Shown: one piece after another, positions 1 to 17,526 of the stretch
Layout: each line of letters starts with the position of its first letter
Position numbering within the stretch: position 1 is the stretch's first letter
Source of the DNA: Rickettsiales bacterium
Lineage (GTDB): Bacteria; Pseudomonadota; Alphaproteobacteria; Methylaequorales; Methylaequoraceae
Length of the DNA stretch: 17,526 bases
Direction: 5' to 3'
Assembly: GCA_002710765.1 (NCBI GenBank)
Contig: PALK01000017.1
Location: 112,934 to 130,459 of the forward strand
Notes under the pieces: generated by a model
Seen by the model: the letters and a program-made list of their open reading frames with translations, nothing else
Databases searched by the model: none
What the model was told of the DNA's origin: nothing
Made by a program: the position numbers and the translations under genes

Positions 1-3000
1 GTCAAAGTTATCCAAAAGATTTTGTCCTTCTTGGCCAACACCAGTCGTAACACCTTTGTTTTGAATGTATCCACGAACCAATACTTCTCGTAGGAACTCT
101 TGTTCGTTAACATATTTAATAGTGCTTCCGTCCAGACCCTTGTTGTTTCCTTGTAGGTCAAGAGCACCGGCTTTAGCACGACCCAAACGGTGTGCCAGAC
201 AGTATGGAACTGCGTCCAGAATATCTTGTCGGCCTACATATTCCTTGCCACGCAAGAAAGAGAAGGCTTGTGCCAATTTAACAATAGAGTTAGTGAAACG
301 GAAACCGAGAACACGAGTAAAGGCTGAAGGAACGTGAGACAAGTCATCAGAAGTTCCGAAATCACCGAAAGATAGAATTGAGTCGGCATCTTCGGCTCCA
401 ATCAGGGGTGTTGTGGTAGATTCTCCAGAAGTTTCGGTGTTAGTGGTAATAGAATAATCCAAAAGTGGAGATTCGTGAACGTTACCAATACCAGTAGCGA
501 AACTGTATTCCAATTCATCGCTTCCAGCAGCGATAGATGTAGGTCGCTTAGCGAAACGCTGAGAGAACAGCATAGAAATCATACCGATATCACGGAGACC
601 GTTGTAAGAAGATCCCGGGGGTGTGAATCCAAGGCTGCCGACAGTTGTCCACACCTTCATTAAGTCATCAATACGCATAGGTATGAGAGTTTTACGGTTG
701 TTTTGAGTTAATTCTTTAACAATACGAAGTTGTGGTTCACCACTGCCTCCGCCACCGTATTTACCCATTAGTTGGTCATAACGACCACCGAGTCCAACGG
801 AACGGAATAGTAATTCCATGTCAATACGATCGGTAAATGCCAAATCGTTTCCTTTTTGGTGAGGGTTAGTATCCATCCAAGCAACGAATGGTGGTGAGTT
901 AAACACTTTACCACGATATTCTACTTTTCGCTCGGCAATAAGACCCAGAATTGCGTCTTCTACACCAGATTGAGAACGGTTGGCTTCGTTAAAGAACTTA
1001 ATAGGTTGGGTAACAATTGGTTTTGGCTCAGGTTCAAACACGAAAGTGTTGGTAGTAGCACCAGTGATAGCAGAGGTTTCTTCAACACTCTGGATTTCCA
1101 GACCGTAAAGAACTTCATCAGGTCGCTTATCATAATCTAATTTAGCCACACCGATTTCACCGAGCATTTCCATACCGATAGCATCAATACCACCACGAGA
1201 AGTAGCACGAATATCACGCAAGAAGTGGCACATCATTTCACGAAGCCAATATCCTTCGTTACGACCAGCATCAGTGTAGATACCATCAAGTTCGGCAGCA
1301 AATATAAGTTGCTTACGAGCCGGTTCGGGAATACTACCCATGATTTGACCATAGAAAGAAGAGTTTACTTTAGCGTTGCGAAGAGACATTTCAAACGGTC
1401 CATAACTGGGTTTGGAACCTTGCTCAAAGGCAATAAATTGACCTTGGTCATCTAAAATCTTGATAGGTTTAACATAGATTTCTTTTTCGGTTTCTGCATA
1501 GGCTTCTGAAGTAGGATCCCAGTTAGGGTGGTCAGCATAGGAGTTAGTTCCCATATCATTCCAGAGTCCAATGTCAAAATCTTTTGGAACACGAACTTCC
1601 CAACAGTTTTGTAGTAGATTACGATAAGTTTCAATAGTAACTTCACGCTTAGAGTCTACAGGTGGGAACAACATATCTCCACGATGATTGGTAGTTTCTT
1701 CTTCTTGGTTGCGAAGGAACTTAAAGTTATAAAGATAAGAACCACTGCGTTGTGGGGAAGAATAATTATAATTATTTGAGGCATCTACTGGAGGGTGTGA
1801 CCAAGAAGTAAATCTCCAACTTTCCCAAACACCAGCAGTATCAGCGTAGGACTTTTGGTTGTAGTTAATATCATAATACATACCTTTCTCAAAAATGAGT
1901 GGCTGGTAAATGTTATCACTACTGGAGTTATCGCCAAAGAAATTACGGGGGTCAGCAGAACTACCCAAGTTGGTTAAATATTGTTCACCGGCAGAATAGG
2001 TCTTGGAAGTATGGTAACCATAAGAGTTAGCCAAAAGGGTAGAAGCACATTCAATAACTGTGGTTTTTCCAGTTCCGGGGATACCAGACAACCGACAGGT
2101 AGAGTTCTTCATCAACCATGCTGCAATCAAGGCTTCTAATTGTTTGTAATCGTCAAAACCGAAAACATCATTGAGTTTGAAAATAAGAGTTCGCATCCAC
2201 TTCAACAAGTCAACACGTTGTTGTCGGCGTTCTTTTTCACCAATCAATTCTTTAAACTCTTCAAGGGCATTCATAATAGAACCGCCCATGCCATCCGCCT
2301 TGTAACGGTTAATAGAATCGTTTTCTAAATTGGTAAACACAGAGTTATCTATAACTTGTTGAACCTCTACTTCACCGTCAGAGTTAACTGGTAGGTTGAG
2401 AATAGAAGTAACATCGGCACCATTTATATCTACTAACTGAATAAATCGGGGTCGTCCATCACGATCGTCTAAAATATCTATACGAGCAATATCGCTAAGC
2501 GGAGTCATAGAGACGACATCACTAAGTCCACCATCATTCATAGAAGCAATTTTAGCAATTAAGTTAGTGGCTCGGTCACCAATAACGCTTTCCAGATTTT
2601 GGAGTAGTAATTGTTTGCCGTCTAATTTAGCCTCACCTTCGGGAACAAAAATAGGTGTAACTACTTCATTAGGGAGCAATCCCATAAGTTCGTCATCATC
2701 TAAAACTTCGGAAAGATAATTGGCTTCCATAGCCTGCTTGATAGCATCTACTTCTACTTCATCAACACCTAAGTTATTCATAGGTTGTGGGCTGTCAGGG
2801 ATTTCAGGAATTACTTCTTCATTATCATCTAAATCTTCAAAGAAAGATTCATCTTGAGACAAGTCTTGGATTTCTTCAATCTCTTCCATAAGTTCTTCAA
2901 CCTCGGGTTCAGAAGGAACATCAGTGGAATCTATTTCCATTTCTTCCATGAGGTCATCCATGTCATCCATGTCTAAAGGTTGAAGTTCTTCAACTTGTTC

Positions 3001-3036
3001 TTCATCTTCGTCAGCATTAAAGTGTTCTTCGGTCAT
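1..3036 (-). CDS. MoxR-type AAA+ ATPase with long insertion (3' end outside window)
   Basis: I translated this by hand; it is open from an ATG at 3036 to the left edge, giving 1,012 codons. Residues 1-120 are strongly acidic. Walker A is SGIPGTGKTT at about 317-326. A Walker B-like PIKFFNEANRS follows at about 677-687, then ERKVEYRGK, a sensor-1-like MDTNP (about 721-725) and an arginine-finger-like FTDRID (about 734-739). Near the right-hand end of the visible protein, FLRGKEYVGRQDILDAVPYCLAHRLGR matches the MoxR lid pattern (split here as FLRGKEYVGRQDIL then DAVPYCLAHRLGR). This motif order is typical of MoxR ATPases, which remodel protein complexes, often with a VWA-domain partner. Walker A and B normally lie about 60 residues apart; here the gap is about 350. 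The Walker B Asp appears to be Asn. The start is supported by AGGAGG seven bases upstream and a one-base TAATG overlap with the preceding gene. Family call firm; exact target unknown. Confidence 0.85.
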   Translation of the reverse strand, partial: MTEEHFNADEDEEQVEELQPLDMDDMDDLMEEMEIDSTDVPSEPEVEELMEEIEEIQDLSQDESFFEDLDDNEEVIPEIPDSPQPMNNLGVDEVEVDAIKQAMEANYLSEVLDDDELMGLLPNEVVTPIFVPEGEAKLDGKQLLLQNLESVIGDRATNLIAKIASMNDGGLSDVVSMTPLSDIARIDILDDRDGRPRFIQLVDINGADVTSILNLPVNSDGEVEVQQVIDNSVFTNLENDSINRYKADGMGGSIMNALEEFKELIGEKERRQQRVDLLKWMRTLIFKLNDVFGFDDYKQLEALIAAWLMKNSTCRLSGIPGTGKTTVIECASTLLANSYGYHTSKTYSAGEQYLTNLGSSADPRNFFGDNSSSDNIYQPLIFEKGMYYDINYNQKSYADTAGVWESWRFTSWSHPPVDASNNYNYSSPQRSGSYLYNFKFLRNQEEETTNHRGDMLFPPVDSKREVTIETYRNLLQNCWEVRVPKDFDIGLWNDMGTNSYADHPNWDPTSEAYAETEKEIYVKPIKILDDQGQFIAFEQGSKPSYGPFEMSLRNAKVNSSFYGQIMGSIPEPARKQLIFAAELDGIYTDAGRNEGYWLREMMCHFLRDIRATSRGGIDAIGMEMLGEIGVAKLDYDKRPDEVLYGLEIQSVEETSAITGATTNTFVFEPEPKPIVTQPIKFFNEANRSQSGVEDAILGLIAERKVEYRGKVFNSPPFVAWMDTNPHQKGNDLAFTDRIDMELLFRSVGLGGRYDQLMGKYGGGGSGEPQLRIVKELTQNNRKTLIPMRIDDLMKVWTTVGSLGFTPPGSSYNGLRDIGMISMLFSQRFAKRPTSIAAGSDELEYSFATGIGNVHESPLLDYSITTNTETSGESTTTPLIGAEDADSILSFGDFGTSDDLSHVPSAFTRVLGFRFTNSIVKLAQAFSFLRGKEYVGRQDILDAVPYCLAHRLGRAKAGALDLQGNNKGLDGSTIKYVNEQEFLREVLVRGYIQNKGVTTGVGQEGQNLLDNFD

Positions 3037-5240
3037 TATTGTGCCTCCTGTTGGTAGTTAAGATCCAATTCAATAAGAACTGGTTGCCCTCCCCGACGAC
3101 CAATAATATAGTATTTGCGTCCGATGCGGAAAGCCACAGCACCAGTAGCATTTTGGTCGGTGGCTGATGGATTAGGTAGATTGAAAGAAGGGGCCATACG
3201 GTTGCTACGACGAATCATCTTTTGAGTTTCATACATAGCAGCAGCATTTCCAGAATGAACTTCAATGGAATCTACTTGTCCCTTGACTTCCTCACCATTA
3301 CGGTCAAAAGCCATAACTTCTCCGTCAGCATTTGGAATCTGAATAACTTTAGTTTTACCATTGTGTTCAAAAGTAAGGGTAGCATCACTACAAGTATCAT
3401 AGCCCAGAGCGTTTCCATCGCTATCTAAAGCAGGAACTAAAGCACTGGTTTGAACACTCTTGAGTGCCATAACCTTATCCATTTGGTCTACTAAACCTAA
3501 TTCGTTATTAACGCCTTCAATATCTAAATCTATTTGGTCGCCCGGGAAAATAAGAGCACTCAAGCGACTTTCTGAATCCTGAATGCGACCACTAAACAAA
3601 TCAGTAGTGCGAGCACCAGCATAATCAAAGTCTAAAAAGACCTTAATATATTTATTTTGAACGTCTACACTTTGGTCTGCAGTTCCAGCAACTCTGGCCA
3701 AAAGTTCATCAGCCGGAAGTGTGCTACCATCAAGGTCAGTCATTTCTTGTTCATAAACATCCACAGTGGCTACAGGAGTAGTGTCTACAGAATAGAAAAA
3801 GATTTGGGCTGCTGGGTTGGCTTCTGTCCAAGTAGGAATATTTTCTGTCCAAGCATCACCATTTTGAGGAAATCCTAAATCACTGGCAGTCAAGCCAGAG
3901 TCTTCAGAATGTTGAGTAATAATTTGTAAAACAGATTGAGTAAGTTCTACCGATTGATTGGCAGTCATTAATCCACTGGTTTGAGTAGCAAGGATAGCGT
4001 TTTTAGAAGCAATTTCAGTGATGGTGCCATCAATGACTTTAAAAATAGTGGCTCCATTTTTATTCTTGGCTTCAAAGAGTTCAATCTTGTTAGCACTGCC
4101 GGGGCGTGACCACTTCAGAGTGAAATCAGCGATATTGTCTGAACTAAGGTTTTCTGCCTTTTGCTCGCCACCACTACCTAAAAGATTAGCCATAGTAGTA
4201 AACTTTAATTTCATTCCAGATTGGACTATAATAACACCTTGGTCGGAAAGACGAGCAGGAGTATTAGGATCGGCATCCCAATTTTCAGGGTCTACCAAGA
4301 ACTCACTGAACTGGAGAACACCATCTTCAGCAGCAGGAGTCAAAAGGAAATAAATTGGTTGTTCTTTTAGAGGGTAAGGATACATACCACTGGAAGTTTT
4401 GTCTCTTTCTTCCCACTTAGGGATGGACAAACGACGATTATCTGTATTAGCATTAGTATATGCCTTCTGAACCTTGGCCGTTAACTTCTCTTGCATAGCA
4501 GATTCGCCTTCTGCCAATGTAATTGCTGGTTCTTCTACAACTTCTTCAACAACTTCGGGAGTTTCTTCAGTTTCTTCGGTTTCTTCAGCAGGGGTGGGTG
4601 CGGGAGGGGATGTGGTTGGTGGTGCAGGTGGCACAGGATTCGCCGGGGTTGAGGTTGCAGTTCCTGTGAGCATTTGGTTGATACCACGGTCACCAATAAC
4701 ATAACTGGCTCCAACACTAACGGGGAACTCAGTAGTATAGTTAGTTCCTGCGGCCACTTTCTTAGCCGATGCAATCCAACTGGCAGTCGGTGAACCAGAA
4801 TTAGCAATTTCTAAAATGTTAGCAGCCATCTGACCATTATGATCAAAGAAGGTAGCATTGAGAGCACGAGATGGTGGTGTCACACCTGCAGGTGTAGTTT
4901 TAGCCGTCTTTTGTGTTCCAGTAGTAGCCTTGCCCCTAACTTGAATATGACGAGTATAATCATCCTTTTCTACGAGGTCATTGAAACCCAGACGTTGTGA
5001 AATAGCATCTGCGTCTGGTAGACTTTGCTTCATAGTAGAGATTTGAGCATATCGTTGAGTATTACCTGTGGTTCCCAAAAGAGGTTTGGAACGATTAGAA
5101 AGTGGGATAGTAAATCCATTATCATTAAGTAAATCTACCACGTCATCAATGAGTGGTCCCTTAATGACAGCATCTTTAAGAGCCTCGGTTTGAAGATACT
5201 GAATGATGGTATCACACTGAACACTATTCAGGACTGGCAT
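3036..5240 (-). CDS. 734-residue modular protein of unknown function, cotranscribed with MoxR
   Basis: No family was recognised. The ATG at 5240 is chosen over a TTG at 5261 because the TATA box at 5263-5270 sits 26 bases upstream of it and abuts the TTG. Residues 1-190 look folded, beginning MPVLNSVQCDTIIQYLQ. Residues about 194-240 are a Pro/Thr linker passing into Glu-rich repeats (EETEETEETPEVVEEVVEEP). Residues 241-734 look like a mixed, mostly beta region, ending in FRIGRKYYIIGRRGGQP. There is no signal peptide or membrane span. As the first gene of the MoxR operon it is the best candidate partner or substrate of the ATPase, in the position where MoxR systems often have a VWA protein. 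I see no DxSxS metal-site motif, so it is not called VWA. A structural protein assembled with help from the ATPase is also possible. Confidence 0.85.
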   Translation of the reverse strand: MPVLNSVQCDTIIQYLQTEALKDAVIKGPLIDDVVDLLNDNGFTIPLSNRSKPLLGTTGNTQRYAQISTMKQSLPDADAISQRLGFNDLVEKDDYTRHIQVRGKATTGTQKTAKTTPAGVTPPSRALNATFFDHNGQMAANILEIANSGSPTASWIASAKKVAAGTNYTTEFPVSVGASYVIGDRGINQMLTGTATSTPANPVPPAPPTTSPPAPTPAEETEETEETPEVVEEVVEEPAITLAEGESAMQEKLTAKVQKAYTNANTDNRRLSIPKWEERDKTSSGMYPYPLKEQPIYFLLTPAAEDGVLQFSEFLVDPENWDADPNTPARLSDQGVIIVQSGMKLKFTTMANLLGSGGEQKAENLSSDNIADFTLKWSRPGSANKIELFEAKNKNGATIFKVIDGTITEIASKNAILATQTSGLMTANQSVELTQSVLQIITQHSEDSGLTASDLGFPQNGDAWTENIPTWTEANPAAQIFFYSVDTTPVATVDVYEQEMTDLDGSTLPADELLARVAGTADQSVDVQNKYIKVFLDFDYAGARTTDLFSGRIQDSESRLSALIFPGDQIDLDIEGVNNELGLVDQMDKVMALKSVQTSALVPALDSDGNALGYDTCSDATLTFEHNGKTKVIQIPNADGEVMAFDRNGEEVKGQVDSIEVHSGNAAAMYETQKMIRRSNRMAPSFNLPNPSATDQNATGAVAFRIGRKYYIIGRRGGQPVLIELDLNYQQEAQ
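3044..3049 (-). promoter_or_regulatory. Shine-Dalgarno AGGAGG for the MoxR gene
   Basis: AGGAGG lies seven bases before the ATG at 3036. Together with the TAATG stop/start overlap it indicates that the ATPase is translated as the second gene of a two-gene message. Confidence 0.75.
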
Positions 5241-5262
5241 AGTTATGAATGCCTCTCCCAAC

Positions 5263-7410: not shown

Positions 7411-7417
7411 TCACCTC
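7411..7417 (-). promoter_or_regulatory. Shine-Dalgarno GAGGTGA that selects a TTG start
   Basis: GAGGTGA precedes the TTG at 7404 by six bases and overlaps the stop of the preceding gene. It decides the start of the 172-aa protein, as the next ATG has no comparable site. Confidence 0.65.
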
Positions 7418-8222
7418 AATACTGGGGTGTATTACGATTTTGGTAGTTACGAAGTAATTCTGCATCAAAGAACTTATTGCGGTCAAAGTTTTGTTCTGCT
7501 GCTTTGACGGCTTGTTCTTTTTGACGGTTATCTTCGGCTCGCTTAATCGCAATTTCAGCCTCAGCCAGTTTTGTTCCAATGTTATCAATTTCAGAACCCA
7601 GTGAATCTATTTTACCTTTGTAATACATAGACATACCAATAGCACCACCTAATCCACCGACTACCATACCAATGGCTCCACTGGTCCATGGGGATACACC
7701 AAACATAGCAGATGCAACGGGCATATCTTTAACTGCACTGCCTGTGAAAGCATTTTCAGCAGCCTTAGCATCAGAGTGGTTGGCACTGTGTTCTACAGGG
7801 GAACGGGATTGCATACGACGGCGAACTTCTCGGTGAAGTGCTGACATATCTTTTCGGAACTTAGTAAACTCAGCATCCGATTTAATCTCGGCAGTTTCCA
7901 TAGTGTGCATTAAATCTGAAAGGTCGGCATCTGACATTTCACTTAATCGCAGACTGCGTTTAACAGAGATTGAATCTTCGGCAGCAAATGTAGTATAAGT
8001 ATTTTCAAACATAGGTGTCTCCTCGGCTTCTACAATACAATCAGTAATCTTTTTAAAACCACGGATTCCCTTACCACGCTCACCTAATAAATACTTTCCG
8101 GGGCCTGTGGCATGAGCAAGATTAACAAAGGTTTCCAAGGGGATTTCCGTTTCAGAAACTATAACATCTTGACATCCTGAGTTTTTGACACCTTTTTCGT
8201 ATCGGCGGATGAAGTAGGGCAT
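7416..8222 (-). CDS. 268-aa protein with one membrane segment and coiled coil
   Basis: Family not recognised. An N-terminal domain (about 1-70) carries the Gly/Lys-rich GPGKYLLGERGKGIRGFKK. A helical, charged middle follows (about 90-140), then a Gly/Met-rich hydrophobic span at about 178-201 (GAIGMVVGGLGGAIGM), then a coiled-coil-like region at about 202-245 (KIDSLGSEIDNIGTKLAEAE). No N-terminal signal peptide. The layout suggests a protein anchored or inserted in a membrane with a helical tail; in a viral setting, a minor virion or membrane-penetration protein would fit, but that is inference. ATG 8222 lies 26-27 bases from a TATA box. First gene of a two-gene unit. Confidence 0.85.
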   Translation of the reverse strand: MPYFIRRYEKGVKNSGCQDVIVSETEIPLETFVNLAHATGPGKYLLGERGKGIRGFKKITDCIVEAEETPMFENTYTTFAAEDSISVKRSLRLSEMSDADLSDLMHTMETAEIKSDAEFTKFRKDMSALHREVRRRMQSRSPVEHSANHSDAKAAENAFTGSAVKDMPVASAMFGVSPWTSGAIGMVVGGLGGAIGMSMYYKGKIDSLGSEIDNIGTKLAEAEIAIKRAEDNRQKEQAVKAAEQNFDRNKFFDAELLRNYQNRNTPQY

Positions 8223-11238: not shown

Positions 11239-12219
11239 TTACTCACCCGGTAATGTCATTTTATCAGTTCCCATAATCAAATCAGCGAAATCTTTTAAGT
11301 GTCCTGAATCGCCTAAACCTTTGGGTTCATAGGGTAAACGAGTTACTCCAATAGCCGAGACATCATGTTCTTTGCAGACTTTTTGATAATTGTTAATCCA
11401 TGGTTGCTGGTTCTGGTGTTCTGACCAGACCATAGCCACGGCAGGATTTTCTCCTCGGATATCAAAGTGTTGTTTGAGATCGGGAACGATGTGATTAATA
11501 ATAAGTGTATTAGCAGGAAGCCCAATAGATTTCAAGAAATTGATAGTGCGATAAAACTCCATGAATCCTGCTTCAGTCGGAATGGAAACTAACATAATTT
11601 TAGTTCTCTCGGTGTCTTCTAAAAATGATTTTAATAAATCTATTTCGTCACAGAAACTGGCCAGTAATTCTTCTAACTCATCAGTATCACTGCCTTTGAA
11701 CACAATACCTTTCAGTAATTTGCCAGAAATCTTTTTCTTCATACGGCGAATCTTAAGCAACATTTCTTTAATGGTATCTGGTGCAGTCAAGGCTTTGAGG
11801 GTGTGTCCCGTAGGTGCAGTATCAAATACAATTAAATCATATTCTTCATCACGCATAAGTTCTCCGAGAATCTCACAAGCACCCCATTCGTCTAAACCGG
11901 GGAGTGCTGACATAGAGACTACATCAGTATCCATATTAGGAAAAAGATTACTAAACATAGAAGCGAAAGCCTCTTTAACTCGGGTTACTCGGCCTGAAAT
12001 GGCTTTGGCAGCATCAATATTCATCGCCCAAAGATTAGTGGCAATTTCTTGAGGTGTAGAACTGATTTTAACTCCTACAGTATCGTCAGTGCTGTGAGCC
12101 GGATCGGAAGAGATAAGAATAGTTTTCAACCCTTGCTCAGCATAATAATGTGCTAAAGAAGCAGAAGTTGTGGATTTTCCCACTCCGCCTTTGCCAGTTA
12201 CTAACAGTAACTTCGTCAT
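11239..12219 (-). CDS. Get3/ArsA-family ATPase
   Basis: A P-loop ATPase of the Get3/TRC40/ArsA group, 326 residues, which is close to a single-domain member. The deviant Walker A is GKGGVGKST (9-17). Switch I is SSDPAHSTDD (37-46), with D46 in the position of the catalytic Asp of Get3. LPGLDEW (106-112) and FDTAPTGHTLKAL (132-144) match further family motifs. Get3 members deliver tail-anchored membrane proteins; ArsA members drive arsenite export. No CxxC zinc pair is visible, nor arsenite-site cysteines in the usual pattern, and no ars gene is nearby, so Get3-like targeting is favoured. ATG 12219 (MTKLLLVTGK) is chosen because the TATA box lies 26-27 bases upstream; the longer frame would translate the promoter. 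It is followed at once by a 52-aa membrane protein. Confidence 0.9.
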   Translation of the reverse strand: MTKLLLVTGKGGVGKSTTSASLAHYYAEQGLKTILISSDPAHSTDDTVGVKISSTPQEIATNLWAMNIDAAKAISGRVTRVKEAFASMFSNLFPNMDTDVVSMSALPGLDEWGACEILGELMRDEEYDLIVFDTAPTGHTLKALTAPDTIKEMLLKIRRMKKKISGKLLKGIVFKGSDTDELEELLASFCDEIDLLKSFLEDTERTKIMLVSIPTEAGFMEFYRTINFLKSIGLPANTLIINHIVPDLKQHFDIRGENPAVAMVWSEHQNQQPWINNYQKVCKEHDVSAIGVTRLPYEPKGLGDSGHLKDFADLIMGTDKMTLPGE

Positions 12220-12241
12220 GGAGAAGTATAGATTCCACTGG

Positions 12242-12249
12242 TATTTATA
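12242..12249 (-). promoter_or_regulatory. TATA box (promoter G)
   Basis: TATAAATA preceded by AAGAAGA (possible BRE), centred 26-27 bases before the ATG at 12219 and five bases after the stop of the 141-aa gene. Confidence 0.8.
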
Positions 12250-12254
12250 TCTTC

Positions 12255-12680
12255 TTAAGCCCACTCTTCTAAGAAATCACTGGAAAACTCTTCAGATAAG
12301 TCATCTAAATCAATTTTTATAACTTCTTGCTTTTCGGTAACAATACTAAATTGACAATACAACAACTCGGTTTCATTTGCGGAAGTAATACCACTCATAA
12401 TTGATTCCCAGAGCGATAAGCACTCTAACGAGATAGTGAGGTCTTCTTTAGGAAAGAATGGGGCTTCTGGGGTGATAACCATACCTGATGACACCAGTTC
12501 TCCAGAATAAACGGTAACTTTGCCACAAGTAATCTTGAGCATAACATAATCTGCACTATTAAAATTATCTAATGGGTGTATAATTATTTTTTCTACTCTG
12601 GTTCCGGGATCCATCTCTACAGTAGCGATGACGGAACTTGTGCGGCTTATCGGGATTTTAAAGTCTTTGCTTTTATCCAT
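12255..12680 (-). CDS. 141-aa protein of unknown function
   Basis: Not recognised. Starts MDKSKDFKIPISRTSSVIAT and appears to be a compact beta-rich domain (VEKIIIHPLDN, VMLKITCGKVTVYSGELVSS, LLYCQFSIVTEKQEVIKI) followed by an acidic helical tail (DLDDLSEEFSSDFLEEWA). No membrane span or signal peptide. The fold impression is of a jelly-roll or Ig-like small domain, but no motif secures it. ATG 12680 is preferred over a GTG at 12692 because GGAGGG lies four bases upstream. A TATA-like box 24 bases before the GTG puts the RNA start near 12692, so this is the one short-leader transcript among the first genes of the units. It sits between the giant gene and the Get3-like gene. Confidence 0.8.
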   Translation of the reverse strand: MDKSKDFKIPISRTSSVIATVEMDPGTRVEKIIIHPLDNFNSADYVMLKITCGKVTVYSGELVSSGMVITPEAPFFPKEDLTISLECLSLWESIMSGITSANETELLYCQFSIVTEKQEVIKIDLDDLSEEFSSDFLEEWA

Positions 12681-12740: not shown

Positions 12741-15700
12741 CTAATTTTCCGAATCCCGGCGTTTCTCTTCCGTTTTCTGTATATCTCCGGACGCAGAATT
12801 GCCGAAAGCGTCCACATCCATCATTTCATCAGTATCTGGATTAGGTGGAAGTAGATTTAACTGTGGGAGGAGTTCTTCAATAGATTCTTCATCCAAGGCA
12901 TAGAAATCACCTGCTAATTGTTCTTCTAAAGTTTCAGTAGCACTGGGTTTGAGAGTTCCGGCTTCTTCTCGTCGCTTACGCATTTTCCAACCACGGTTTC
13001 TTTCTTTGAGAATATCTTGGTATTCTTGACGTTGTTTAGACATCCATTCTTCTATTTCTTCTAAAGTCATCTCGGCAGAATCTTGTTTCAAGATTTTACG
13101 TTTATACCACTCTACGTTTTCAGGGGTGACTCGGAGACCAAGATTTTGACATTCTACAGCAATAATAGAATCAATTTCATCATAAAGAACATAATTCAAC
13201 CAAACTTGAACCTTTCTACCAGTAGTTCCTGTGATTTGGTAGGCAGTGTTGCCGCTATAACAAAAAGGAACGCCTGCTCCTTGATAAGTTAGGAAAGGCA
13301 TATACTGTGCATCTGCCCAAAAACCCCCACCGTTCCAAGGTGGTGCTCCTTCAGGATAGTTTAGATTAATAGGCACAGGATAATTAGGATCATCACACCA
13401 GTAGTTAGCCCACACATAACTCAAAGAGGTATCTTGAACTCCGGTGCCTGAAGGATAAGTTTGAGTCGTATTATAATCAGCAATACCAATCCAAATAATA
13501 CCATCTAAATTAGGGCTACCTTGTCTGGCAGCCCATAAACTGGAACCAAAAACAGTAGTGGCAGCACTATTAAAATTATTTACGGCAATATTGTAAAAAT
13601 CAGGAACATTACCAAAGTTTTGAGTTTGGTCTAAGAACTCACTGAAATCAGGAGTTACTGAAATCGCAGCGAATCCATTTCCTTCTTCGGAAACTGCTTT
13701 ATCATTATCGGCTAACGTCATCATCCATTGAGCACGGTCTAAATCAAAATCAGCACATACTGGTCTGCGAGTAGTGGTTGCTCCACCGGGACACAATTTA
13801 TTAAATGTATTGCCGTAATTGATAATATTGAAATCAATAGAGGCGTAGTTAGGTTCGTCGTTAACGGCAGCACAAGCCCATGAACCACCACCAAGATTAT
13901 TAAATCCAATCGGTCCTTCAGAGGGCATCACTAAATATTGATATGCTAAAGTGGAATCATTAACGTGTGGATAATATTTGGAGCCTTCGCCTTCAATAGC
14001 AACCGCATTGTTAACTTTAATATTCAACGCTTCCAGACGGAGATTCTGTGTGACGTGGGTGGTTTGATTGATATCACGGACATAAATGGCCGTTCCATCG
14101 CTGGTTTGATAAAAAGCAATATCTTTCAATCCTTGCGGATCTCGCACACCAGCAACTGGGAATGGGCTGAATGGCAAATCCCATGGATTTCCTGCACTTC
14201 GGTAAGAATCCAACGAAGCATTTAATTCGTCAACCAAACTGCCTAAAGTAGTATATTGACCAGTTCCCATAGGTTGGGTGGCTCCGGGTGGGGCAACAGC
14301 ATTAAGTCCTAACTCATTTTGATTGAGTATAATATCAAACTGGAAACCTGCTCCTGTGCCTGCCACATCACTGAAAAGATTACCTGTGGGACCATCACCA
14401 CACTTGGTAGTGTTAGTAGTGGGAATAGCCAGATATTGTTGAGGAATGGGATTATCAGTTTGTGGTGTAAGTGGTGAGACTCTTTTATCCCAAGAATCAT
14501 AGATATCGGGGCTGGTAACAGTAGAGCCAGTATTTTGATTAAGACCATTATATGGAACTGCTAAACGGTAGACACCTCCCCACACGGGTGCATTAGGAAT
14601 AGTTGTCCATTCGTTGATAACTGGGTTAACATCCAACAGAATATTGCCGGGGTCTTGAGCATGAACTGTAGGTCCTGTAAGATTTCCAGCACCGCCGTCA
14701 AAGGGTTTCCACCCGAGTCCTGTAGTGGTCCGATTCCAATGACCTAACATAATTTGTGCCAAACCAGTAGGTTCTCCGTAAGTATAGGTAATGGGTTCTA
14801 CATAAGTATGAAAACAAGACTTTTGGGCTGCCACTTGCTCGGTAGTTAAAGGAACTCCTTGAGTCTGAGTATAAATCCATTCCGAAGGCATGAGAGCGAT
14901 GTCTAAATACCCATCAGTATTAAAATCAGGTGCGTTGGCATTAGGTAAACAAGCAGTAGGGCTAAAGGCTGCGGTCGTTCTATCGGCTATAATGGCTTCA
15001 GCCCAACCATACCAAGTAATGTAAGGAACAATAGTTTTAGTATCCATAGCGATGCCATTAGCACTGTCAATGGCCGTCCACGGTTGTAAAATATATATTT
15101 CAGCACGTTTTTCATTCGTGCCTCCTGCTAATTCATTTACTTGTAGTAAAAGTCCTACATTAAAAAGTTGATTATCTGGTGCAGGATAATCAGCCCTAAC
15201 TGCAGCCAACGGTTTAACAAAAGTAGCATTATCTAACGAAGAATTGGTGGGTGCGACAGTCAAATTACAGGCATTTTCAGCATTTACATCCTCTAAAGAT
15301 ATGTTTTGGCGAGTAAAACACTTCATCCATGTAACATTGGCATAATTAGAAACATCTGGTTCGTCTTGCCAACCACCCGCAGGTGGATTATCTTTATTAG
15401 GGATTCCTTTTTCGGTGGCTTCAGTCCAACTGGTATTATATCCTGCGTAAGATTGACCTAAACAAGTTACAACACACAACGGTGAATAAACAGGTTTACC
15501 TCCTGAAACTTTACAGGAATAAGTTAAAGCAGGATCGGTGGTCGGGTCTTCTAAACAATTTCCAGTAATAACGAAATAAGAGATAAGTGAAGTAGGTGCT
15601 GTGTAAACACCTGTAAAATTAAAATTATTAAAATCTGGGAAAGCATTGGATTGTTCAAAAGTAGGATAATATAAACCTTCAGGACCTGTGAAAGAATTAG

Positions 15701-17526
15701 AACCAGCAAAGGTATTGTAAGATGGTGTAATACCCGTAAGTTGACGAGGAATAAAACCATGTCTCCAGATTTCGCCATCAGTAATGGCTGAAGCAGGGTT
15801 GTTTACGCCCATTAAGGGTGTATAATAGTTGGGTTTTGGTGCATATTCAGAAAGAGAGGTCCGAGGGTAAGCATCTCCTCCGAGGGGGTTATTTTGATAC
15901 CGAGACTTGCACGATAAGAAATTAGGGGTTGAAAAAGCCATTTCTGCTGGCTTACGAATAGGGAATTGGCCTATTAAGGGTGTAGGACAAAAAGGAAAAG
16001 TGCTGGGTTGCCGAGGGGCCTCATTTTCATATTCAAAACTCGATCCAGTATTAGTTTGAGGGTAAAAAGGATTTCCACTAAACTTAGTATTTGTCATTCC
16101 GATTTGATGAGCACGATAAGTAACTTGTTCAAAAGGATAGATTTGAAGCGAACCAAAACGAGAAGCACCACTACACCAAGGAACTCTAAGATTCGTGCCG
16201 GGGTTAAGAAATTGGGCTTGCCAATCGCCTTGGGCTATGCCTGCTGCATTCCCAGAAAAGGCACCTTGAGTGGCCATACTACTGCCACACTGATCGGGTT
16301 GTCCGTATCCAAACTGAATAAGAGGATTTTGTCCTTCTATATTACTATTTCCAATACACCAATTAAAGCCCCAATGTTCATAGGGAAACTCTATTTCGGC
16401 ACCGCCAATATTAGAGTTCAAACTGGTAATTTGAGAATTAATCATCTGGGGGTTGATAGTTTTATAGATATCTGCACTATCGTTGCCAGAATACTGGTCA
16501 TTAAATATATTTACTACGAAGGAATACATAATAGGGATAAAATCTTGTTCGGCATAGATAGACCACTTATAACCAGCAGTAACATTAGTGCTGTTGTGAA
16601 CCGTGGTTCCATAACCCCCGCAAGGCATATAGCCAACGCATTGAATAACTAACGGCTGAGCACCATTACCCGACAATTCAGGTTCCATGGCTTCCCAACC
16701 CTCTCTGGCAAAAGTGTTGAAACTTCTTTGGTCTATACACATATCCATTAAACCTCCTCCTTGGTTGGTTTGTTGAGGAATGGGTTCACCGGCAACAACA
16801 TAAGGGTCATTAGTAGCCGGACCGTTAGACTCAGGTAATTCTAATTGAGAACGAGTCGGGAGGATGTGCCATGCAGCCGGATTATCTATTTCATCATATT
16901 TACAAGCAGCGAAGAAACCATCTAAAAATCCATTAAACTGAACATCGGGTGTCGTCCAACCGGCAGCCAAATCAGTGGGGTCCCAAGAGATGAACTCAAT
17001 CCGATCCCAGTTATTTAACGTCCACTGGTCATAATTAAGTTTACAACGATAATTTCCGCAAAGAAAAACCGTGCCGTTAGCACACATAATTTTATTTATA
17101 ACCCATGAGCCGGGAACGGGTTGGATTCCTGCCCAACGTCCTGCAGACACTAAATCTATGGTTCCTTCTCCTGAGAATAAAGCACTCGCAGTAGGGTCGT
17201 TAGGACTGGCTTCTCCATAACCAATAGCACAACCATTAGTAGCATCTAAAAAAGAGTGATAAGCCCAAGCCTGATCTAAAATCTGGGGTGGTAGTTCTTC
17301 AACAGTAAGATCGAATGATAGTCCCAAAATATCACGGTCCTGTATTAGTATAATCTTTCGTGGTAGTATACGTCGTGGGTTGTGGTGTATAACCAGTTGA
17401 GAAATCAGTAAAAGGGTTGTATTCATTACAAGTTGAATCGCCGGGAGTAAATTGAGTTTCAATTTCTACCACACGGTTGTAGGCTACATAACGCACGTCA
17501 TACCAAGTTCCCGGTGGAATCTCAAT
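12741..17526 (-). CDS. Giant extracellular-type protein, 5' end outside window, with internal frame disruption
   Basis: At least about 1,590 codons are present. The main frame runs from near 17333 to TAG at 12741. Upstream, 64 codons to the right edge are open in another frame (IEIPPGTWYDVRYVAYNRVV ... DYTNTG) and have the same Thr/Asn/Tyr-rich character, so they are probably the same protein. The first 40 or so codons of the main frame upstream of the switch are Leu/Ile/Arg-rich and look like non-coding shadow. The body has over 20 scattered cysteines and many N-x-S/T sites (NSTNVT, NQTT, NLT, NSS), as in disulphide-bonded, glycosylated surface proteins. The last roughly 150 residues change to a charged, helical tail (YKRKILKQDSAEMTLEEIEE). 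No membrane span is visible there. A virion spike or fibre or a surface adhesin would fit; no family recognised. Confidence 0.8.
17332..17340 (-). other. Frame switch (+1) in the giant gene at GGA-CCG-TGA
   Basis: The upstream frame ends at TGA (17332-17334) directly after GGA-CCG. The downstream frame is reached by skipping one base, giving GAT-ATT-TTG-GGA. Removal of one C of the CC pair gives GGA-CGT-GAT-ATT and a continuous protein. A sequencing indel, a real mutation or a stop-dependent +1 frameshift are all consistent. Confidence 0.6.

Follow-up and report, generated by a model that had tools for sequence, protein, structure and literature searches.

A divergent MoxR-clade ATPase with an altered Walker B motif and a large insertion, encoded in a putative virion-assembly cluster of archaeal viruses

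The 17,526 nucleotides analysed here (the window; positions 112934-130459 of the 136,324-base source contig, C16) contain the larger part of a gene for a AAA+ ATPase in which the Walker B motif reads Asn-Glu instead of the canonical Asp-Glu. The open reading frame (ORF) occupies 1..3036 on the minus strand and crosses the window edge; on the source contig the complete gene extends over C16:111440-115969 and codes for 1509 residues, ending at a stop codon. The altered motif is fixed in a family of related proteins, together with an Asp two residues ahead of the sensor-1 Asn and a large insertion between Walker A and Walker B. By analogy with other viral MoxR proteins, it is somewhat probable that the protein is a working MoxR-clade ATPase of a large archaeal double-stranded DNA virus and serves there as the motor of a virion-assembly module. 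The elements of the gene are as follows; the motifs are named by alignment to MoxR and according to what is generally known of AAA+ proteins.

1..3036, minus strand: MoxR-clade AAA+ ATPase gene, 5' two thirds, coding for residues 1-1012 of the 1509; the remaining 497, at the C-terminus, are encoded beyond the window.
2647..3036, minus strand: acidic N-terminal tail, residues 1-130; 37.7% D/E, 0.8% K/R.
2062..2085, minus strand: Walker A GIPGTGKT, residues 318-325; found in 119/120 family proteins, with a gap in the remaining one.
1171..2013, minus strand: inserted region, residues 342-622; deduced by means of hhalign with the insert removed, the boundaries being our own.
1027..1104, minus strand: helix-2-insert hairpin region, about residues 645-670; extent approximate, from a homologue model and hhalign to MoxR.
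985..990, minus strand: Walker B pair Asn683-Glu684 (canonical Asp-Glu), from the family alignment.
865..873, minus strand: sensor 1, Asp722-Thr-Asn724, with the acid two residues ahead of the Asn; invariant in the family.
826..828, minus strand: arginine finger R737; role by alignment to MoxR, present in 120/120.
172..324, minus strand: AAA lid with sensor-2 R913, about residues 905-955; PF17863 above cut-off, match at 918-952.

In order to determine the family, a homologue (L010) was searched against about 5.8 billion proteins. This yielded 176 matches, and the best 120 of these were used for all family counts. All 120 proteins contain Asn-Glu at Walker B, and N683, E684, D722, N724, R737 and R913 are likewise invariant in 120/120; the Walker A Lys, K324, is invariant in the 119 proteins in which the region is present. 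The initial annotation, made from the letters of the window, had noted the change from Asp-Glu to Asn-Glu and had called for homologues with the same insertion and motif; their number makes clear that the protein is not a one-off. In contrast, 25 of 25 bacterial MoxR controls have Asp-Glu at Walker B and, two positions ahead of the sensor-1 Asn, a Thr. The four viral comparators (ATV, SMV1, Aphanizomenon phage CL131 and Moorella phage MTATph1) all have Asp-Glu as well, and either Ala or Ser at the latter position (sensor 1 being read by motif). A profile alignment calculated with hhalign sets FFNEANR of the family opposite LADEINR. Thus, the viral family has no acid at the Walker B position and carries one at D722.

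Two other explanations were ruled out. A sequencing error at the Asn codon is incompatible with its occurrence in 120/120 proteins. An intact Walker B within the insertion or elsewhere was sought by scanning residues 291-744. The sole other conserved D-E, at residues 640-641 in the motif KR[AP]DEVL (D in 96/120, E in 120/120), is not preceded by a hydrophobic strand and is therefore not a Walker B.

The order of the motifs (Walker A, N683-E684, N724, R737, lid with R913) is that of MoxR proteins, as initially proposed, and Walker A and the Asn-Glu pair lie where the initial annotation had placed them. The lid matches AAA_lid_2 (PF17863) with an E-value of 4.9e-7. Pfam AAA_3 (PF07726) scores 14.1 bits for the complete ATPase and 15.6 bits for the part in the window, both under the curated cut-off of 27, and no helpful match to the ATPase came from NCBIfam. 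When solved structures were searched, either with a single sequence or with the family profile and using the window part or the complete ATPase, the matches were at chance level only. A profile of the part following the insertion found the MoxR structure 2r44 at E 0.21 with Asn-Glu opposite Asp-Glu and weak per-stretch values; the many HIV gp120 matches beside it were taken as chance. The fold was recognised in a model of the homologue L011, which displays the core plus lid of MoxR and in which 320 of the 330 residues of 2r44 were aligned. Further fold matches of this model were BchI and, at E 1.2e-5, ATV ORF618. The helix-2-insert (MoxR) clade is defined by an insert in helix 2 (PMC7159879, in the portion consulted). 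The corresponding region of the model aligns to MoxR and is predicted, with low confidence, to form two long strands (model residues 371-382 and 385-396). An Asp-Glu Walker B is usual in MoxR and AAA+ proteins, yet the clade definition cited above does not include it. Because of its Asn-Glu, the ATPase is filed as a divergent member of the MoxR clade and not as a standard MoxR.

Measured from its first residue, Walker A lies 256-380 residues (median 350) ahead of the Walker B strand in those family proteins in which both were found (119/120). The same spacing is 60-64 in the 25 bacterial MoxR proteins and 64-68 in the four MoxR proteins of other viruses, which bears out the difference of about 350 versus about 60 noted at the outset. 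The insertion itself comprises 176-299 residues in the family (median 268). Its described richness in Tyr and Trp is also real: residues 342-622 contain 6.8% Tyr and 2.5% Trp, compared to 2.8% and 0.8% in the remainder of the protein. Only 19 of its 281 columns reach at least 95% identity, versus 71 of 123 for residues 623-745; the fixed motifs include WxxWRFxxW and TDAGRxEGY. Searching the insertion alone against PDB sequences and Pfam yielded nothing convincing. It follows the P-loop helix and precedes the helix-2-insert hairpin. As far as position is concerned, this agrees with the suggestion that it falls at substrate-facing loops, but the structure prediction is weak in precisely this region. 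The acidic N-terminal tail, which had been highlighted as a second unusual part, is a property of this protein but not of the family: none of the 130 columns is conserved at 95%.

Few residues of AAA+ motors are as constant as the Walker B Asp. In AAA+ cores, sensor 1 and Walker B are on neighbouring strands, and D722 could therefore replace the missing acid. We hypothesise from the sequences that the Asn is tolerated at Walker B because D722, on the adjacent sensor-1 strand, would place an acid close to the Mg2+ site. A site without the Walker B Asp is not necessarily inactive, since in the AAA+ GTPase McrB replacement of this Asp by Ala impairs the basal activity and replacement of the Glu by Ala abolishes it; this comparison, in the part of PMC7680126 consulted, covers Ala at the Asp and no Asn substitution. 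The same enzyme provides the argument for an ATP-binding switch that turns over very slowly or not at all, which the initial annotation had considered. In McrB the Asp coordinates Mg2+, and its replacement by Ala not only impairs basal GTP hydrolysis but more often disrupts assembly (PMC7680126, same part). An Asn might thus weaken Mg2+ binding, so that the ring binds ATP and keeps its shape as a scaffold without turnover, and the fixation of Asn-Glu in 120/120 would suit such a protein. However, a dead site is expected to drift, whereas here no variation is seen in the catalytic Glu, sensor 1, the arginine finger and sensor 2 (120/120) or in the Walker A Lys (119). Moreover, the residue kept is the Glu, whose replacement abolishes hydrolysis in McrB, and not the Asp, whose replacement impairs it (PMC7680126). 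The invariant catalytic set favours a working ATPase, and we regard a binding-only or very slow switch as unlikely.

More far-reaching is the idea that an archaeal virus lineage has rebuilt the AAA+ site, with the Mg2+-linked acid moved to D722 and a large inserted domain added, and uses the product as the ring motor of an assembly machine split into MoxR, protease and VWA components. We put this forward tentatively, as it is rather less probable than not. The fixed Asn and the fixed new Asp nearby make this viral family a natural experiment on the limits of rearranging a working AAA+ site.

The genes downstream of the ATPase form a conserved cluster in the order ATPase, metallopeptidase-like protein, Cys-rich protein, VWA protein, HerA-type ATPase. 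This order is kept in distant relatives (best-segment identity 33-39%). The metallopeptidase-like neighbour (408 residues) has an HExxH motif and is a putative zincin-like metallopeptidase. The VWA gene is the third gene downstream of the ATPase, beyond the window, and matches PF05762 with 26.5 bits versus a cut-off of 26.4. VWA homologues at the same place were aligned for five loci; for L012 the assignment is from the ORF table only. The HerA/FtsK-type neighbour (404 residues) scores 28.3 bits for DUF87, over the cut-off of 23.2, and matches PHROG 2666 with E 3.6e-17. For the HerA DNA-repair helicase (NCBIfam NF040819) it reaches 39.6 bits, far under the curated cut-off of 970. It is likely to be a DNA-packaging motor.

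Together with the features of the sequence, the fixed residues and the fold recognised in the homologue model, this cluster allows a mechanism to be proposed by analogy. The ATPase would assemble into a ring, to which the VWA protein, using its metal site, would deliver a structural protein. The insertion may broaden the ring face that holds the partners. ATP turnover would then remodel the client, which the zincin-like neighbour might trim before or during DNA loading by the HerA-type motor. A cluster joining MoxR, peptidase-like, VWA and packaging-like proteins would make the role of viral MoxR proteins testable.

Two other roles were weighed against virion assembly. MoxR-vWA pairs with peptidases are known from ternary conflict systems (PMC7159879, in the portion consulted), and the virus might carry such a module to act on its host or on rival elements. 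We consider this improbable: the effectors of the known systems are highly variable according to the same source, whereas the present cluster has a constant order in distant relatives and adjoins a packaging-like ATPase, and no VMAP or effector domain was among the matches listed for the scanned proteins. Least probable by our estimate is a chelatase-type motor like CobS or ChlI serving a metal-inserting enzyme, although CobS and the vWA protein CobT occur in haloarchaeal tailed viruses (part of PMC8651126) and BchI is among the fold matches.

The gene directly upstream of the ATPase is the remaining listed feature.

3036..5261, minus strand: gene for a protein of 741 residues, overlapping the ATPase gene by one base; no family match above noise.

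ORFs of similar size are found at this place in L010, L011, L012, L014 and L015, and two smaller ones in L013 (judged by place and size). The ATPase homologue in L013, as assembled, is split into two overlapping frames (L013:9992-13856).

The source contig encodes the large subunit of the archaeal DNA polymerase D (PolD; L050:576-4073, C16:55575-59072, E 1.4e-108) and a TFIIB-like protein (L007:2574-3524, C16:21574-22524, E 2.3e-22), the latter being 27% identical to a TFIIB of Halorubrum tailed viruses. Furthermore, it contains genes for a DNA repair glycosylase and a DNA ligase. PolD and TFIIB point to an archaeal host. Neither a second TFIIB in the 68%-complete assembly nor an archaeal 16S gene in the window's assembly was found, and a search through 59 relatives and the window's own genome, 60 in all, located the ATPase in the latter only. 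It is therefore probable that the contig was mis-binned into a bacterial assembly. Relatives were identified on four IMG/VR contigs, three long ones (150-166 kb) and one of 84 kb, and in two metagenome-assembled genomes labelled Flavobacteriales and Acidiferrobacteraceae. PolD together with TFIIB occurs in three of these six records, namely the three long contigs, and not in the 84-kb contig or the two bacterial-labelled genomes. Two database relatives are labelled Euryarchaeota and Thorarchaeota; they, too, may have been mis-binned, as was probably the window's contig. The organism names of the closest PolD entries were of no help for the host; one of the 120 matches listed is labelled Bacteroidetes. 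We conclude that the family belongs to a group of large archaeal double-stranded DNA viruses whose contigs were probably mis-binned into bacterial assemblies.

Comparing the window part of the ATPase with 50,697 phage records gave no match. Among 25 of 29 PHROG and 16 Pfam families listed for 50 right-arm proteins, PHROGs annotated as 'tail fiber' and as 'virion structural protein' are present; capsid, portal and terminase families other than HerA-type are not. Literature searches, with subscription journals and preprints mostly outside their coverage, found no description of this ATPase family or its viruses, and viruses of 136-166 kb with PolD and TFIIB seem to be little described. The four IMG/VR contigs compare to 176 protein entries elsewhere, as if virus finders overlooked the group, the searches differing in size and method.

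Further genes were noted. The right arm contains a Cu/Zn superoxide dismutase gene (L002:8270-8884, C16:101269-101883; Sod_Cu, E 1e-40; placed from the ORF reading). Within the window, 11239-12264 codes for an ArsA-type ATPase (PF02374, E 3.9e-56) with similar-looking ORFs in L010 and L013, and 12741-17462 is an ORF of 1573 residues with no significant family match, perhaps a virion protein. The ORF at 7416-8222 (268 residues) shows weak matches to holin and spanin PHROG families (best E 0.0018), possibly only a membrane-plus-coil likeness.

With cellular MoxR ATPases (2r44) and RavA, the viral ATPase has the AAA+ core plus lid in common. It differs from the bacterial controls in Asn-Glu versus Asp-Glu, in Asp versus Thr two residues before sensor 1, and in a spacing of about 350 versus about 60. 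Among viruses, the initial annotation had pointed to p618 and p892 of ATV (Bicaudaviridae), and the VWA gene outside the sequence it was based on strengthens that comparison: both viruses combine a MoxR ATPase with a VWA partner. ATV p618, a major component of the virion, has ATP-hydrolysing activity and interacts with the VWA protein p892; it has been assigned to tail development (PMC4124505, in part). Unlike the present family, p618 (618 residues) has Asp-Glu, ordinary spacing and no sign of the insertion. Compared with individual ATV proteins, the family profiles gave too little signal to be of use (probability 2.7 for p618, 3.5 for p892). Similarly, in SMV1 a VWA gene adjoins the MoxR gene, but ORF588 (588 residues) has Asp-Glu, ordinary spacing and no sign of the insertion. 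In Aphanizomenon phage CL131 the gene following that of a MoxR-like ATPase is annotated as VWA-like, and in Moorella phage MTATph1 the corresponding gene contains a DxSGS motif; these ATPases (482 and 373 residues) have Asp-Glu and ordinary spacing, and a pattern search detected no HExxH in the next gene. By description, Group 2.2 jumbo phages also have MoxR, peptidase and vWA together, with a proposed role in virion assembly involving proteolysis (PMC7824862, in part). There, peptidase and vWA are fused in one protein, whereas here they are encoded by separate genes with a Cys-rich gene between them. The present cluster looks like the same idea as the jumbo-phage fusion, with peptidase and VWA split and a packaging-like motor beside them.
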